Shown: positions 7,222-16,400 of the stretch, piece after piece | Position numbering within the stretch: the stretch's first letter is position 1 | How the letters are laid out: each line of letters starts with the position of its first letter | Translations under genes and position numbers: made by a program | Source: Cokeromyces recurvatus | Lineage: Eukaryota > Mucoromycota > Mucoromycetes > Mucorales > Mucoraceae | DNA: 64,000 bases | Direction of reading: 5' to 3' | NCBI RefSeq assembly: GCF_025118155.1 | Contig: NW_026251401.1 | Location: forward strand, 615,811 to 679,810 | The notes under the pieces: model-generated | Database searches by the model: none | Seen by the model: only the letters and a program-made list of their open reading frames with translations | What the model was told of the DNA's origin: nothing

Positions 7222-10200
7222 ATGGCTAAAAAGAAGGGAGGAAAGAGAAAGGACGATTATTGGTAAAATATTAATAATTATTTTTAAAGTTTTATAACCT
7301 TACTTATATTCATCTATTATTATTAAGGGATGAAGCTTTTGAGGAAGACGCCATTGTTACTGGCGCTGCTGCTCCCAAAGAATCTGAAGAAGAATTTGCT
7401 CAAAGAGCTTCAGCTTTTTCTGCACTTGCCGAAATGAATGATGAAGAGGATGATGGGTAAAGGACATGATAATCGATTGCAATTCATTTTTTTTTTTTCT
7501 TGACGAATATGATAATAACCAATTTTTTTTATAAAAAAAAATAGTTTAATGGCTATGGTTAACAAAGCTGCCAAAAACAAAATAAAAAAGGGAAAGAAAG
7601 GAAAACAACAACCTGTTGAGGAAGAAGAACCCATCACTGAAGAAGAACCACAAACTTCTACTATCGGCACTGATGAACCTTCTCAAGACATTGACGATTA
7701 TGATTGGGTTAATGACAACAAAAAGAATAAAAAAAATAAGAAGAATAAACAAGCATCTGAACCTGTTTCTCCTGCTCCCGAAGCTGCTGATGGTGGTGAA
7801 ATCCGTATTTTGACAAAGAAAGAAAAGGAAAGACTCAAAAAGGAAAGACTTAAGGAAGCTAAGCGTTTAGCAGCTCTCGAGAAGAAGAAACAACAAGAGG
7901 CTGAAGAGGCTGAATTTGATAAACTTCTTGGTATTGATAATAAAAAGAAAGAGGAAGAAAAGAAACAAGAACAACAGCCTGTTGCTGCGGCTAATGAAGA
8001 ACCTACCGCAGCCAAAGAAACTACCTCAAAATCTAAAAAGAAGAAAGGAAAGAAGACAGCTGCCGCAAAGGAAGCTGAGTCTGAAAACGCTTCGGCTCCT
8101 GCTTCAGAAGCACCTGCTACACCTCCTCCTGCACCTAAAGGTAAAAAGGGTAAAGGTGGTGCCGGTGTTGCTGCCTTGAGAAAGATGCTCGAAGCTCAAC
8201 GTGCTGCTGAGGAAGCAGAACGTAAACGTCTCGAAGAAGAACGTAGAAAGGCCGAAGAGGAAGAAAGAAGAATTGCTGAAGAAGAAGCAAAGAAGGAAGC
8301 AGCTCGTGCTGCCAAGAAGGAAAAAGAGAGACTTAAGAGAGAGCAACTTCGTAGGGAAGGTAAATTGCTTACTAAAGCTCAGAAAGAAGCTCAACGTTTA
8401 GCCAAATTGCGTCATGAACAATTGCTTGCTTCTGGTCTTGTTCGCGTCCAAGCTCTTGAAGAGAATGGCGAAAAACCTAAGCGTGTTGTCTATAATAACA
8501 GAAAGAAGAAGACTCTTTCTAAGGAAGAACAAGAAAAGAAGAGACAAGAAGCTGAAGAAAGAAAGCGCAAGGAAGAAGAAGAAAGAAAGCGTAAAGAAGA
8601 AGAAGAAGCTAAGAAGGCTGCTGAAGCTGAGGAGTCTGAAGATGATTGGGAAAAAGCTCTCCTTAGTAGTGACGAGGAAGAAAAGAAGGAGGATAAAAAA
8701 GAAGAGGAAGAGGATCTCAAGAGTGACTGGGATGCCTCCAGTGGAGATGAAAAGGAAGAGGTAAAGCCTGCTGCTCCTGCACCTACTAAGGAAGAAGCTG
8801 CACCAGCTAAGAAGGATGTTACACCTGCCTCCACTAAACCCAACATTACATCAAAGAAAGAAGAATCTGACTCTGAAGAAGACTCTGAAGAAGATTCTGA
8901 CGAAGATTCTGACGAAGATGATAGCTCTGAATATGATTCCGAAGAGGATAGTTCTGAAGAAGAACTCAGCGCTACTCAAAAGCTTGCTCTCCAAAAGAAG
9001 GAAGAAGCTGCTGCACGTCGTGCTCAACGTCAAAAGGAGGCCTTGGCCAATCGTTCTAAGGATGACTTACGTTCACCTATCTGCTGTGTCCTTGGTCACG
9101 TAGATACTGGTAAATGTTGGGGACGAGATACACCTATTTTAATGATGGATGGTACAACACGTAAAGTACAGGATGTAAAGGAGTTTGATTTGTTGATGGG
9201 TGATGATAACACACCTCGTATGGTGCAACACGGTTCAGTAATTAAGGGAGAGGGTATGCTTTACCGTATTGTTCCCGCCAAGAGTGCTGGTGCTGATTCT
9301 TTTGTCTGTAATGGTGATCACGTTCTTGTATTGACTATCCCTCAGAGACAGTATGTTCAACGCAAAACTCGTACAGAAAATGGTGTAGCACAAATCATGT
9401 ATTCTGCTGAATCATTCACTGTCGATCCAGTTACCAAACGTCCTAAGAGACAAAGTTATGGAGAATTTGCTACAGAAGAAAAGGCAAAGGCTGCATTACC
9501 ACAATGGGAACCATTGATTTGGGAGTGTTCTGTATTGGAATACTTAGATCTCGTACGCCATGATAGTGGTTTAGCTAATCTTTGTTCAATGTACAAACCT
9601 ATGAACGGTGTTGAATTCGCAGAAAATGCTGGCCAACAATTTACAAACGCTATTACTGAAGTATTTGGATTTAAACCTACACTCTCCCAAGAATTAGACA
9701 TTGCTAAGTTGTTGGGTCTCTGGTTAGTTGCTGGCGGTAAGATTTTGAAAGACGGACCTGTTACCGCTGAAATGCCTAGCCAAAGAGCTGTCATTGACTT
9801 CTTACATTCTTGTGCCAATGTAATGAACACCACCTGTGAACGAATCTTAGATGAATCAAACACTAGAGGAAATGAAATTTTCGGTTTCAAGTTTGGTGAT
9901 TCATTTGAACAACTTTTGAAAGCATTTGGTGTAGCAGAAAATAAGAGCATTCCTAATGCCATTATGCCTACCTCATTAAACCATAGAAAAGCATTCCTTG
10001 CAGGTGTTGTTGATGGTAATGCCAATCTTGAAGTTAGCTCCATCAACAATAATGGACTTGTGACAGCAGAATACTGGGAAATTAGCAGTGAACATGAAGA
10101 TATTTTGTTGCAACTTCGTAGACTTGCTCGTTCTGTTGGGCTCCATGTTGGTGCTATTGACAAGAAGACATTTGGCTATAGAATCCATATTTCAGGTGAG

Positions 10201-12156
10201 ATGATGCGCACTCTTAACCCATATATTTCTCTCGACTACAAGAAGTCTGTACCTCATGAAGCAGAACCTTGGAAGCAACTCTGCGACAACTCATGGACTT
10301 TCTATATTGAAGAAATTGGCCACGGAGAATACTTTGGTTTCACTTTGGATGGCAACTCAAGATTGTTGCTTGGTGATTACACCGTTTCCCATAATACTAA
10401 ATTATTAGATAAGATTCGACAAACTAATGTGCAAGAAGGTGAAGCTGGTGGTATTACACAACAAATTGGTGCTACTTTCTTCCCTGCTGACACAATTGAA
10501 AAGAAGACAGCAGTTCTTGGTGATAAGCGTGTCGATAAACTTAAGGTTCCTGGTATTTTAGTTATTGATACACCTGGTCACGAATCTTTCACCAATTTGA
10601 GAAGTAGAGGTAGTTCTCTTTGTAACATTGCTATTTTGGTCGTTGATATCATGCACGGTATTGAACCTCAAACACGTGAATCTATTCGTTTACTTCGTGA
10701 TCGTCGTACTCCTTTCATTGTTGCTTTGAACAAGATCGATCGTCTTTTCGAATGGAAGGCAACTCCTAATAACTCTTTCCAAGATTCTCTTGCCAAACAA
10801 AAACCTTCTGTTAAACAAGAATTTGAAAAGCGTGTGGCTGACACTATTCTTGCCTTTGCTGAAAATGGTCTTAATGCTGAACTTTACTACAAGAACAAGA
10901 ATTTCGCTAAATATGTTTCATTGGTTCCTACCTCTGCTCACACTGGTGAAGGTATTCCTGATTTGCTTAACTTGCTTATTCACTTAACACAGACACGTAT
11001 GAGTGAAAAATTGATGTATATTACTGAACTTGAATGTACTGTTCTCGAAGTTAAGGTGATTGAAGGTTTGGGTACAACTATTGATGTTGTTCTTGTCAAT
11101 GGTTGGTTACACGAAGGCGATCGTATCGTCGTCTGTGGTCTTAATGGACCTATTGTGACAACTGTCAGAGCTTTATTGACACCACAGCCTATGCGTGAAT
11201 TACGTATTAAATCCCAATATATTCATCATAAATCTGTCAAGGCTGCTTTGGGTATTAAGATTGCTGCTCCTGAACTTGAAAAGGCAATTGCTGGTTCACG
11301 TCTTTTGGTTGCAGGACCTGATGATGATATTGAAGACTTGAAGGAGGAAGTAATGTCTGATTTGACAGATTTGATGACTTCTATCGATCGTACTGGTCAC
11401 GGTGTCTGGGTTCAAGCTTCTACTTTGGGTGCCCTTGAAGCTCTCTTAGAGTTCTTGAGAACATCCAAGATTCCAGTCGCAGGTATCAATATTGGTCCTG
11501 TTCACAGAAAGGATGTCGTTAAGGCTAGTGTGATGTTGGATAAAGCAAGAGAATTTGCTGTCATGCTTTGTTTCGATGTCAAGGTTGATAAAGAAGCTGA
11601 AGATTTGGCCGAAGAATTGGGTATGCGTATCTTTACTGCAGATATTATTTATCACTTGTTTGATCGCTTCCAAGAATATCATGCTTCTATTATTGAACAA
11701 AAACGTAAAGATCAAGCTGGTGAGGCTGTGTTCCCTTGTGTCTTGAGAATGATTCCTCGTGCTATTATTAACAAGAAGGATCCCATTATTATTGGTGTTG
11801 ATGTTGTTGAAGGTACTCTTCGTTTGGGCACACCTATTTGTGTTGTCAAGACCAATCCTGAAACTCAAGCTCGCGAAGTGATTACACTTGGTAAGGTTAC
11901 ATCAATGGAACAAAACCATAAACCTTTAGAAATAGTGAAAAAGGGTGGAGCTGGTGCAGGTGTTGCAGTTAAGATTGAATGTGCTTCTTATGAAACTCCA
12001 AAGACATATGGACGTCACTTTGAAGATACCGATGAATTTTATTCTAGAATTACACGTCAATCTATTGATATTATGAAAGAATCTTTCCGTGATGATTTAT
12101 CAAAGGAAGAATGGGGTCTTATTGTTAAGCTTAAAAAGATTTTGGGTGTAGATTAA
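7222..12156 (+). CDS. FUN12: translation initiation factor eIF5B, with intein
   Basis: Three exons: 7222-7262, 7328-7456, 7545-12156, with phases agreeing at both junctions; 1593-residue precursor. eIF5B is the GTPase that joins the 60S subunit to the 48S complex. The N-terminal ~550 residues are a Lys/Glu-rich, low-complexity region with acidic patches ([18 protein letters not shown]). The G domain follows: G1 GHVDTGK interrupted by an intein, G3 DTPGHESF, G4 NKID, G5 SAHTGEG; then the beta-barrel, the alpha/beta/alpha domain and the domain IV region, ending ILGVD. Removing residues 581-1007 gives a 1166-residue eIF5B of normal length with an intact P-loop GHVDTGKT. As G1 is cut, splicing should be required for GTP binding. 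Codon use in the intein looks like the host gene. Start chosen because [21 protein letters not shown] is the expected eIF5B-like beginning. Confidence 0.95.
9115..10395 (+). mobile_element. intein in the P-loop of eIF5B
   Basis: A 427-residue in-frame insert between the Lys and Thr of GHVDTGKT. It begins with the nucleophile Cys ([13 protein letters not shown], block A), has a block-B-like [10 protein letters not shown] with its conserved His, and ends with block F ([17 protein letters not shown]) and block G (TVSHN), followed by Thr as the +1 residue. These are the residues needed for protein splicing. The middle holds a LAGLIDADG homing-endonuclease region with two motif copies, [10 protein letters not shown] (9709-9738) and FLAGVVDGN (9994-10020). 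Position 8 of each motif, normally the catalytic Asp, is Ala in the first and Asn in the second, so DNA cleavage is probably lost while splicing should persist. Archaeal IF2 inteins and an eIF5B intein of a chytrid fungus are known from the literature; I believe the archaeal site is the same K/T position, from memory. Confidence 0.93.
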
Positions 12157-12346: not shown

Positions 12347-13337
12347 ATGGTAAATGATAGTCAAGAATTAAGTTAATGAAAAAAAAAAAAAAGAAAAGAA
12401 AAATATATTTATTGAATTGAATGAATAGCCACAAGAGGATCAACTTAATCTATTGCAACATTCTGCTAGTATTTCTGCTGACCAAGATTTAGAATCAGGC
12501 TTTACATCCTCTCAACCTGTAAATGGCAATTTAAATAATACTATAAATAATGCATCTTTCGAACAGACTGGATCAACAAATAAAATTAGAGACTATTTTC
12601 AACAGTCAAGGTAAGCAATTGTATCCTGAGAAAAAAAAATTATTAGATAGTAACCACATGATGTAAAGTCATCCTATTGCAGCTTTTTTCTTCTTGGCTT
12701 TTAGACTAGGCGCATTATTGACATATTTATTAGGCTCCATTTTTACAGAGAATTTTACCTTTGTGTTTGTTATTACCATCTTACTTTTGGCTTTTGACTT
12801 TTGGACAGTAAAGAACATCTCAGGTCGATTATTAGTGGGGCTTCGATGGTGGAATGAAATTCAACCTGATGGATCCAATAAATGGGTATTCGAAAGTGCT
12901 AATGTAAAGTATATACAAATGTATATAAATGTATATAAATATACACATATATGTATGTGTGTGTGTATTATGTCTTAAGCTAAACATTTTCCTCCTTTTT
13001 TTTTTTTTTTTTTTATTAATAGCCTAGTAGAATTAACAATGCTGCAGATACGCGCTTGTTTTGGTGGACATTATATGGTACACCAGCTCTTTGGGCATTA
13101 TTTGCCTTATCTTGTATCATTACACTTAAATTCTCTTGGCTAATCATTGTAGGCGTTGCATTGGCGTTAAATATGGCTAATGTGTATGGTTACACACAAT
13201 GCGATAAAGATGCAAAGAAAAGATGGGCAACAGGTATGGCTGCTCGTTCTGCTTTAGGTTCTTTAGGTAGTGGTGCAACTGGTTTAATAGGACAGGCTTT
13301 ATCAAGTGGGATTGGTAAAGTTTTTAGCTCAAGATAA
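12347..13337 (+). CDS. TVP23: TVP23 family Golgi membrane protein
   Basis: Exons 12429-12610, 12669-12903 and 13023-13337 are certain; the start is most simply an exon consisting only of the ATG at 12347-12349, followed by a 79-bp intron (GTAAAT..AATAG). The product is about 244 residues. After a polar N-terminus (about 60 residues) the TVP23/DUF846 pattern begins: [20 protein letters not shown], then [13 protein letters not shown] and [17 protein letters not shown], with four hydrophobic membrane spans. TVP23 proteins are in late Golgi vesicles and affect membrane traffic. The gene sits 190 bp after eIF5B and converges on SPF1. The family call is firm; the first exon is inference because no other in-frame ATG with a donor was found nearby. 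Confidence 0.88.
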
Positions 13338-13482: not shown

Positions 13483-16400
13483 TCAATCTCTTCGGGCAAT
13501 TGGTTTGGCACGGTTATCAGCAAATAAAAACTTTGTTATCTTCTCAATACCATAAGCAATACCAAAGTCAAGAATCATACAGAGCGTTAACTTATAACGG
13601 AACTAAAATTGTATTCAATGTTAGTAAAAATAAAATAAAATAAAAACAAAGATAGGAACACTTACCGTTCCAGGGAATCGAACAAGCTTAAGTTGATCAT
13701 TGACCTCTGGCCATAACTCAGTAGCACCAGCTAAGGCAACACCACCGACAGACATTAAACCATAATATAAGGCCTTATTATCTTGAATACGTTCACGGAA
13801 AGGATAACCTTGATAGTTGATAGCAAAGGTAGATACTTGCATAGATAATTGAATAAGATAAACAGCACTATTTAATAAACTAGGCTCAAATTCACCCTCC
13901 AAATCAACTTCCTTTGGTCTAATATATAACGAAATAGTTAGCAATCTATACATAAATCATATTTTCACTAATACTTTACGGTTCAAGAGATTTAGCAAGA
14001 CCATTAATATAAATCAAAGCAATAATATGAATAGCGAATTGTCCCATGACAGATAGAATAATGTAAGGATTAAAGATGTTTGGCTGAGGGCGTTCTTTAG
14101 ATAATTTCTGGAGTGGTTTACCTCGAGAAATACAAAGGAAACAAACAGCCATTAACATACCAGAAATCGTCACTTGAAGATCGCCAAATTTAATACCATC
14201 CAGATACAAAACAGATAAACTATAAGCAGAAATTAAACAATTTAAAGCTAGAATTTTGTACATTTGAATTGTTGCTACAAGTGTACAACGACCTTGACGA
14301 ATGATGTTGTTGACTAATATACAAATAAATAAATTAGCTTAAAACACAATTTTATAAACATATATCCATATATACTTTACTTGAAGTCACATTACGAAGT
14401 TTAGAAGTGAAAGGTGCAGCAACTGAAGCATCACCGAATTTAATAGTAGGGGGCTCTTCCATATCCATACCTTCCAACATCTTTTGTGTAGCTTCTTCTA
14501 TCTTTTTCTTTTGCTCCAATTGTCTTCTTTGAGCAGGTGTTAAATTCTGATTCTGTTGTTGAGCAGATTGAGCAACGAATTCAGGATAAAGATGAGCAAT
14601 AGCAGGAGGAGGTGGAGGAGGTGGCTGATTAAAACGAGCAGAAATACTCTTTTGTTGTTCATACATGGCCTTCATACGTTCAATACGTTGACGTTCAGCG
14701 ATCTTTTGGAGATCTTCAGGAGTTCCATCCAAAAGTGCCACACCAACATGTGCTTGCTTCAAGGCGCCAACATCATTTGTACCATCACCAGCCATTAATG
14801 TAGTATAGCCTAAATTTTTTAATCCTGTCAAAAGATATTCCTTTTGAGAAGGAGATACACGTGCATAAACCCAAGTGTGCTCAAGGATTTTGTTCATATT
14901 TTCCTTATGAAGCATAAATTGACTCATGGCAAAACCGGTTAAACAAATATCATACTTATCCAAAAGGGCTTGATCCAAAGGCTCAGAAGGATCAAATTCA
15001 ACACGATAAGATTCATCTACACTGTGGAATACAATTTGATTGTCCTTACGTGTTTCGTCTCTATCTACAATCAAAACATCACGTTCAATAATGCCTACTT
15101 CACGAGCTACTGCACAGGCGGTCAATGGATTGTCACCAGTAATCATAATACATCTGTGTGAAGATTCATTTAATTCCTTTAAGGCAGCAATAGCATCTTC
15201 CTTCAAAGGACAGGTAAAGACAATAAAACCGGCAAAAGTAAGGTCACATTCAACTGACTCACGAGGCAGGTCATTAATTTGGTTAGCAGTTAACTGATGA
15301 TCCAACATTTTATAGCCAAGTGCCAAAACTCTGCTACCTTTACGCGTAAAATGACGATAAGTTTCAACATAATCTTTAGGAATATGTGTATACATCGTCT
15401 TGAGCGTTTCAGGAGCGCCTTTGACGGCAATAAAGGTCTTTTGTCCATTTATAGAGGGATGTGTTAAAGTTGAAACGGAAGATTGACGTTTCAAAGCTGA
15501 AGAGAATTGATAACGACGACGAATATGTAAATTATGACTACGCTTTTCTCCTTTAGGAGTAACAACATCATTAGATCCTAATTCCCAATTAAGAGCTTTA
15601 AGGGTTTCCTTTTCCATAGGATCGCCTACAACTCCATCTTCAAGTTGAACTAAAGCATGCGCACTGGCTAAAACCCACTTGGTAAAATCAGGAACCTCAG
15701 TGGCTTTTGAGAGTTCGGTTAAAGGTTTGCTTTTACTATTATTTCCAAAAAAAAAAAAAAAAAAATGCATGAATAAAATAATTAATAAGATTCATATAAT
15801 ATATATGTATGTACTCAACTTACTCAGCATAAGCAACGCCTTCAAAAACGAGATCTTCACCAGTTAAAGTACCTGTCTTATCAAAACAACAAACGTCAAC
15901 ACGACCAGCATAAGGAATACGGAAGGGTTCAGTACAATAGATAGCAAACTTAGAAAGAGCAACTAAACTGCTGTTAACGGCTAAACTCAACTCCATAGGT
16001 AATTCAGGAGGTACAACAGATGTAATAATCAAAATACAATCCAATAAAAGTTTTGACTTTTTACGATCATTCTTAACACCTTCTTCCCATACATAGGCAG
16101 AAGCAGCAATAGCAAATATCAATAAGAAGAGAATAAATAATAAGGCTTCAAAATTATTAGCAGAAACACGTTCAGTTGAAAAAATCATAGTACGAACTAG
16201 TTCACCTTGGGATGTTCCAAAACCAGTACGAGCAACAACACAAACACAACCCTCATCTGGTGGAGCCTCATGTTTAGGTGGAGTGACCTGAAGTACCTTC
16301 GTACCACCATAAAGCACATTTAATCGATCTGCAGAAACCAAATCAAATTCCTCCTCAGGGCTTCTAAGAGCAACAGATTCTTTTAATAAAGGTGTTGATT

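Follow-up and report, generated by a model that had tools for sequence, protein, structure and literature searches.

Introduction

The insertion of an intein between the Lys and Thr of a P-loop has ample precedent: the position is already termed a 'classic' intein site in the accessible part of PMC5050341, and by a published count some 70% of the inteins of bacteria and archaea have an ATP-binding protein as host. Among translation GTPases, the inteins of archaeal initiation factor 2 (aIF2; Thermococcus, Pyrococcus, Methanocaldococcus; NCBIfam NF011418) sit in an orthologue of eIF5B and run from Cys1 to His-Asn|Thr. For eIF5B itself three inteins have been counted, in Chytridiomycota and Glomeromycota (Green et al. 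2018, Table 1, PMC5784728; accessible text); like the intein described below, they belong to the Hom_end_hint family. Here we analyse a 64,000-nucleotide stretch of DNA from the mucoralean fungus Cokeromyces recurvatus (contig NW_026251401.1; ‘the window’, to which all coordinates refer), in which an intein interrupts the P-loop of eIF5B at positions 9115..10395 of the + strand.

Like the known P-loop inteins, many of which are related to it in sequence, the Cokeromyces intein lies between Lys and Thr/Ser; while those mostly have ATPase hosts, its host is a translation GTPase of the fungal nucleus. The aIF2 inteins occupy the same codon, and so do the eIF5B inteins of Batrachochytrium dendrobatidis and Rhizophagus clarus, which are 37% and 33% identical to that of Cokeromyces, respectively. 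The VMA1 intein PI-SceI, the best structure match, has another host protein and another site, and the fungal Prp8 inteins, of which the matched Cryptococcus structures are short (140–143 residues), also have another host. Compared with the set of Green et al. (2018), Cokeromyces and Benjaminiella are new hosts, and we found no eIF5B intein of Coemansia, Mucorales, Cokeromyces or Benjaminiella in titles or abstracts of the open-licence literature searched. As far as searched, the intein is new in the Cokeromyces lineage, while both its kind and its insertion site were known before. With high confidence we read it as a class 1 intein with a degenerate LAGLIDADG domain that was acquired horizontally and belongs to a different lineage from the archaeal IF2 inteins. 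What the locus adds is evidence for repeated invasion of one codon and for transfer between phyla.

Results and Discussion

A complete class 1 intein splits the P-loop of eIF5B

The insert separates the Lys and Thr of GHVDTGK|T exactly: the first half of the split loop, GHVDTGK (9094..9114; all intein features are on the + strand), is followed by 427 codons that begin with Cys1 and end in GDYTVSHN, after which eIF5B resumes with TKLLDKIR. Cys1 (9115..9117), the nucleophile of the first splicing step, opens the N-terminal part of the Hint splicing domain (residues 1–118, 9115..9468; an approximate boundary based on identity with Benjaminiella and on model strands), and this part contains block B, Asn66-Gly-Asp-His69 (9310..9321). 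The C-terminal part, with blocks F and G (10291..10395), ends in His426-Asn427. Thr +1 (10396..10398), the nucleophile of the second step, would be the P-loop Thr once ligated. Cys1, Asn66, His69, His426 and Asn427 are invariant in an alignment of 30 rows and also in 34 eIF5B inteins, and the +1 residue is Thr in all 43 complete eIF5B inteins among the matches listed.

The Pfam family Hom_end_hint (PF05203) matches the insert with 63.4 bits (curated cut-off 32.1), and Hom_end does so with 25.5 bits, also above its curated cut-off. The best sequence matches in the PDB are Prp8 and VMA1 inteins. The predicted structure (predicted local distance difference test, pLDDT, 90.3) combines a Hint fold with a LAGLIDADG domain and is matched best by yeast PI-SceI, with Prp8 inteins also among the matches. 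Cys1, the block B His69, His426-Asn427|Thr and the Hint fold together make this a class 1 intein. The preliminary description, made from the letters of the window, had proposed a complete intein here; the analysis confirms a real and complete one, with exactly the same coordinates.

The host gene is eIF5B. It occupies 7222..12156 of the + strand, with exons at about 7222–7263, 7329–7457 and 7546–12156 (stop included), and the public Cokeromyces protein P0002 (BX663DRAFT_487049) matches it, mapping to three exons, 7222–7263, 7329–7457 and 7546–12153. The intein flanks score 579.5 bits with PRK04004 (IF-2; cut-off 468), the protein shows the GTP_EFTU, IF-2, D2 and D4 domains expected of eIF5B, and the reading frame is free of stops across the whole insert. 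In the Cokeromyces genome (28.05 Mb, 64 contigs) we found a single copy of the intein and, for eIF5B, one match over the full length besides three that are weak and partial. No second eIF5B, second intein or other Hom_end_hint region came up in six-frame searches that scored the best candidates only. In a bacterial-type IF2 gene of Cokeromyces, located on contig C63, GHVDHGK|T is uninterrupted.

We infer that the intein undergoes protein splicing. Transcribed and translated together with eIF5B, it would fold its Hint domain, the Cys1 thioester would form and the N-extein would move to Thr +1; Asn427 would then cyclise, and the ligated product would be the seamless GHVDTGKTKLLD. Trypsin cuts at the ligated Lys itself; a peptide spanning the junction needs another protease. 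Only ligated eIF5B would bind GTP, binding without a P-loop being not to be expected. Release of eIF5B needs GTP hydrolysis, and in yeast loss or knock-down of the factor leads to slow growth and a ribosome-maturation defect (PMC8430213; accessible part). As no GTP binding is expected without a P-loop and growth is slow without eIF5B, splicing should matter for growth, and a fungal nuclear translation factor should depend on it. The earlier wording, that an essential GTPase depends on splicing, holds in so far as functional eIF5B should need splicing, while ‘essential’ is too strong for yeast (PMC8430213; accessible part).

The endonuclease domain is predicted to be inactive

Between the two Hint parts lies a LAGLIDADG homing endonuclease domain (residues 187–392, 9673..10290), recognised by Pfam Hom_end and by structure matches; I-Tsp061I and I-DmoI match model residues 188–384. 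Its first motif, LLGLWLVAG (9709..9735), has Ala206, and its second, LAGVVDGNA (9997..10023), which aligns with LAGLIDSDG of PI-SceI, has Asn302, at the catalytic acid positions. Both acids are thus replaced in Cokeromyces, unlike in PI-SceI, which is an active endonuclease. Among the 34 eIF5B inteins an acid is found in the first motif column in four and in the second column in four, and in both columns only in P0004 (LLGLWLADG, LAGVIDGEG). P0004 is a metagenomic, Mucorales-like eIF5B of 1196 amino acids, and its motifs suggest that its intein is possibly a still mobile form.

The Cokeromyces and Benjaminiella inteins are 79% identical in the N-terminal and 89% in the C-terminal Hint part, and 60% in the endonuclease; the greater likeness of the Hint parts is as expected with selection on splicing and none on homing. 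Since both endonuclease acids are replaced, the Cokeromyces intein should splice and no longer home. Its persistence would reflect the difficulty of deleting it exactly, together with the host's need for splicing.

The same codon is occupied across early-diverging fungi and in archaea

In the first protein search, of which the 120 best of 3940 matches were examined, 43 eIF5B proteins carry a complete intein at exactly this K|T, and further records have incomplete gene models. The hosts include Cokeromyces, Benjaminiella, the metagenomic Mucorales-like protein, many Coemansia, Sorochytrium (Blastocladiomycota), Batrachochytrium, Rhizophagus, Funneliformis, Mycoemilia, Dispira, Tieghemiomyces, Dimargaris and Chilomastix, the last a metamonad. 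In this protist (Chilomastix cuspidata, P0052) the codon holds a strongly diverged intein, 316 residues long. The site is empty in 21 other listed records, from genera of Mucorales. The preliminary description had placed the eIF5B inteins of fungi in chytrids; they are not confined there, Glomeromycota being already in print (PMC5784728; accessible text) and more lineages being found here.

It had also placed archaeal IF2 inteins at the same K|T, and this was right. A length-restricted search for long IF2 proteins, which selects for long proteins and so gives no frequency, returned 7957 matches, and among the best 120 of these an intein interrupts 105 archaeal IF2 proteins, the junction being GHVD(H/S)GK|T or GHIDHGK|T. 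Of the remaining 15, five are empty and ten were missed by the search pattern, eight of them beginning GHVD(H/S)GK|C and two lacking that end. In all three loci inspected (L089, L091, L122) NF011418 resumes at its position 475, the Thr of GHVDHGK|T. Genome searches covered, among others, the phylum of a Methanobacteriaceae genome (133 of 151 genomes matching) and a phylum of five; the 37 archaeal IF2 loci retrieved all have an uninterrupted K|T.

The Cokeromyces intein thus shares the insertion codon of the NF011418 type, without close intein kinship to it. With a profile of fungal inteins (33 rows, without Chilomastix) none of the 105 archaeal IF2 inteins exceeds 25.0 bits, while 13 inteins of other genes reach 108–340 bits and the Chilomastix protein 88 bits; the reverse search gives at most 21 bits. 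The Pfam families differ as well: PF05203/PF05204 in fungi, PF14890 and often PF14528 in archaeal IF2 (precomputed assignments). Because the fungal profile is so much weaker on archaeal inteins than on those of other genes, we favour convergent invasion at K|T over retention, with the archaeal inteins probably forming a separate lineage. The earlier description had left very old retention and repeated invasion as two options; these scores argue for the latter. With the same codon in orthologous GTPases holding two barely related inteins, shared position alone cannot argue for an origin in the last universal common ancestor (LUCA).

Intein relationships conflict with those of the hosts

While the exteins of Cokeromyces and Benjaminiella are 95.4% identical, their inteins share 68%; for Cokeromyces and Coemansia spiralis the values are 69.1% and 61%. 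Median intein identity is 54.9% between Coemansia and Mucorales (54 pairs) and 50.7% within Coemansia (153 pairs), so that likeness is no lower between the two groups than inside one. Between Coemansia and the set of Mycoemilia and Dimargaritales, intein identity falls to 27.7% (90 pairs), though the exteins of that set are about as distant as those of Mucorales (67%). The eIF5B intein tree contains 34 of the 43 complete inteins, nine from Coemansia being omitted (P0008, P0010, P0012, P0013, P0015, P0016, P0017, P0025 and P0027). With Chilomastix left out, approximately unbiased (AU) tests reject intein clades of Mucorales plus Glomeromycotina (p 0.00028), Zoopagomycota (p 2e-5) and Kickxellales (p 2.6e-5).

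Horizontal transfer is the simplest reading of these identities and tests, and because the intein trees conflict with the host groups, transfer between phyla is likely. Mucorales would have received the lineage from a pool to which Kickxellales and Blastocladiomycota also had access; inteins may therefore move between fungal phyla, as this case points to. A FastTree tree that nested the Mucorales inteins inside Coemansia was not upheld: the AU test leaves one Coemansia clade standing (p 0.366).

Relatives lodge mostly at GK|T/S, in one case outside a P-loop

The Cokeromyces intein belongs to a larger family whose members mainly occupy GK|T/S in P-loop proteins. In all 13 other-gene relatives (RecQ, SNF2, RecD, UvrD, MutS, SNF1 kinase and others) GK directly precedes Cys1. 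A search with the SNF1 intein, whose search words could favour GK flanks, added 96 proteins among the best 120 of 258 matches: GK precedes Cys1 in 93, including another eIF5B (P0243), and the other three are a Prp8 (P0288, not at GK) and two without an N end (C-flanks TLGIG of SNF1 and TVISQ of V-ATPase). The C-flank as read is not Thr/Ser in 17 of the 93. An IMG/VR scan with patterns lying inside the intein only gave at least 500 loci; the best 80, after removal of ten duplicate flanks and one cut locus, left 69 distinct ones, of which 46 have GK|T/S, 16 a Walker-like motif at another junction and seven neither. The label of a GK|T/S ‘specialist’ is based on counts within the family itself.

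An SNF1/AMPK-type kinase (P0035, 1077 amino acids) carries a related intein at residues 61–477, inserted at YRLGK|TLGIGS, which is a GK|T outside any Walker A loop. In the tree this intein groups among those of eIF5B, and it poses the question whether these inteins target the P-loop or only the short GK|T sequence. A second kinase of this type with a related intein, P0242, lacks the N end and resumes at TLGIGS.

In a sample of 22 of the 34 eIF5B inteins, 12 of the 13 other-gene inteins and 14 of the 80 viral loci, AU tests of the eIF5B inteins as one clade gave p 0.026 with Chilomastix, 0.13 without it and 0.467 with Chilomastix and SNF1. Once eukaryotic other-gene inteins were included, the eIF5B plus SNF1 clade was rejected (p 0.0057), in a test set up after a quick tree had been seen (18 of the 34 eIF5B, five of the 13 other-gene and 27 of the 96 new proteins). 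That test used 16 of the 34 eIF5B inteins and 14 of the 27 new proteins and omitted the long-branched Batrachochytrium, Chilomastix, Dispira, Tieghemiomyces and Coemansia RSA 1199, among others. The rejection suggests two separate fungal invasions of eIF5B. We give about even odds to a broader reading, in which the K|T of IF2/eIF5B was invaded at least three times, once by the archaeal family and at least twice in fungi, there by members of one GK|T/S-specialised family (hosts GTPases, helicases, AAA and MutS) that then, from eIF5B, passed between fungal phyla and escaped to SNF1/AMPK. If true, the short GK|T sequence, and not the P-loop fold or shared descent, would set where these inteins live.

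Alternative explanations

Could the segment leave at the RNA level, as a spliceosomal intron or an assembly artefact, with protein splicing uninvolved? The deposited gene models of three relatives (P0047, P0054, P0059) drop parts of the insert as if they were intronic; these models leave proteins without a normal P-loop, and the partial removal is likely an annotation error. The public Cokeromyces model retains the insert in the coding sequence, and the splicing residues are invariant across the 30 rows. Moreover, the first base of the insert is T and the downstream base A, and the last upstream base is A and the last insert base T; as the bases at both ends forbid any shift, an excision that restores the P-loop must be exact, with ends TG...AT. 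GT-AG or other known ends are absent, so an ordinary intron was rejected, and we find this explanation hardly credible. It is improbable, but less strikingly so, that the intein acts as a regulatory switch, its conditional splicing setting the level of active eIF5B. The element sits in the GTP-binding loop and is retained although its endonuclease acids are lost, a Cys-Cys nearby in the N-extein could react with Cys1, and conditional splicing is published for other inteins. The need for a precise deletion also explains the retention.

The remaining alternatives concern history. Descent of the eIF5B and IF2 inteins from one intein of the archaea–eukaryote ancestor, lost elsewhere, would account for the identical codon, and Green et al. 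(2018, PMC5784728; accessible text) trace some fungal nuclear inteins to LUCA, as a proposal in keeping with intein spread over three domains; the profile scores and the different Pfam families make such retention very unlikely. Inheritance from a single intein in the fungal ancestor, lost by most lineages and never passed between phyla, fits the wide spread of eIF5B inteins over early-diverging fungi and the one sample in which neither the eIF5B plus SNF1 clade nor eIF5B without Chilomastix was rejected. Against it stand the rejected host-group clades, the disagreement of extein and intein identities and the rejection of eIF5B plus SNF1 once inteins of other P-loop genes were added, and we judge it quite improbable. 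Several observations weigh against our preferred reading of a horizontally acquired intein of another lineage than the archaeal ones. An hhalign comparison aligns the fungal with the archaeal profile over 122 columns (probability 75%, E 2.6e-5), mostly in the endonuclease (Cokeromyces residues 277–411), which leaves room for a very remote homology; and the two sets that were compared, other-gene inteins found by similarity to the query and archaeal ones by similarity to IF2, are not one unbiased sample. The AU tests leave standing one Coemansia clade and a clade of Coemansia plus Mucorales (p 0.33), so that the donor and direction of transfer given above are tentative; old duplications followed by numerous losses might likewise produce the tree conflict. 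Finally, block F has Ser (NSR) in Cokeromyces where the relatives in Glomeromycotina and Dimargaritales have His (NHR); Ser is also present in Prp8 inteins from the PDB sequence matches.

Further features and observations

A linker or additional domain joins the N-terminal Hint part to the endonuclease (residues 119–186, 9469..9672; from the model, boundary approximate). Foreign codon usage of the intein was considered and set aside, the signal being weak: the GC content at third codon positions is 0.314 in the intein, 0.258 in the C-extein and 0.285 in the N-extein, and the codon correlation of the intein is 0.856, against 0.914 between the C-extein halves.

In 15 eukaryotic-looking P-loop proteins (P0245, P0249–P0253, P0255, P0260, P0262, P0264, P0266, P0269, P0270, P0299 and P0318) the frame after His-Asn reads Val-Ser/Arg/Gly, like a GT 5' splice site, and not Thr/Ser. 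One of them, the MutS homologue P0253, resumes 42 residues past the intein end, at STYLRQ. A spliceosomal intron may adjoin the end of the intein in genes of several types, named partly by eye. Proteins on viral contigs (L128–L207, L208) carry related inteins, mostly at P-loop-like motifs, and an intein is annotated in the helicase of the E. coli phage Sciku. Downstream of eIF5B in the window, the frame at 12667–13337 (+) resembles, by eye, a TVP23-type membrane protein, and that at 14352–15791 (-) a P-type ATPase.

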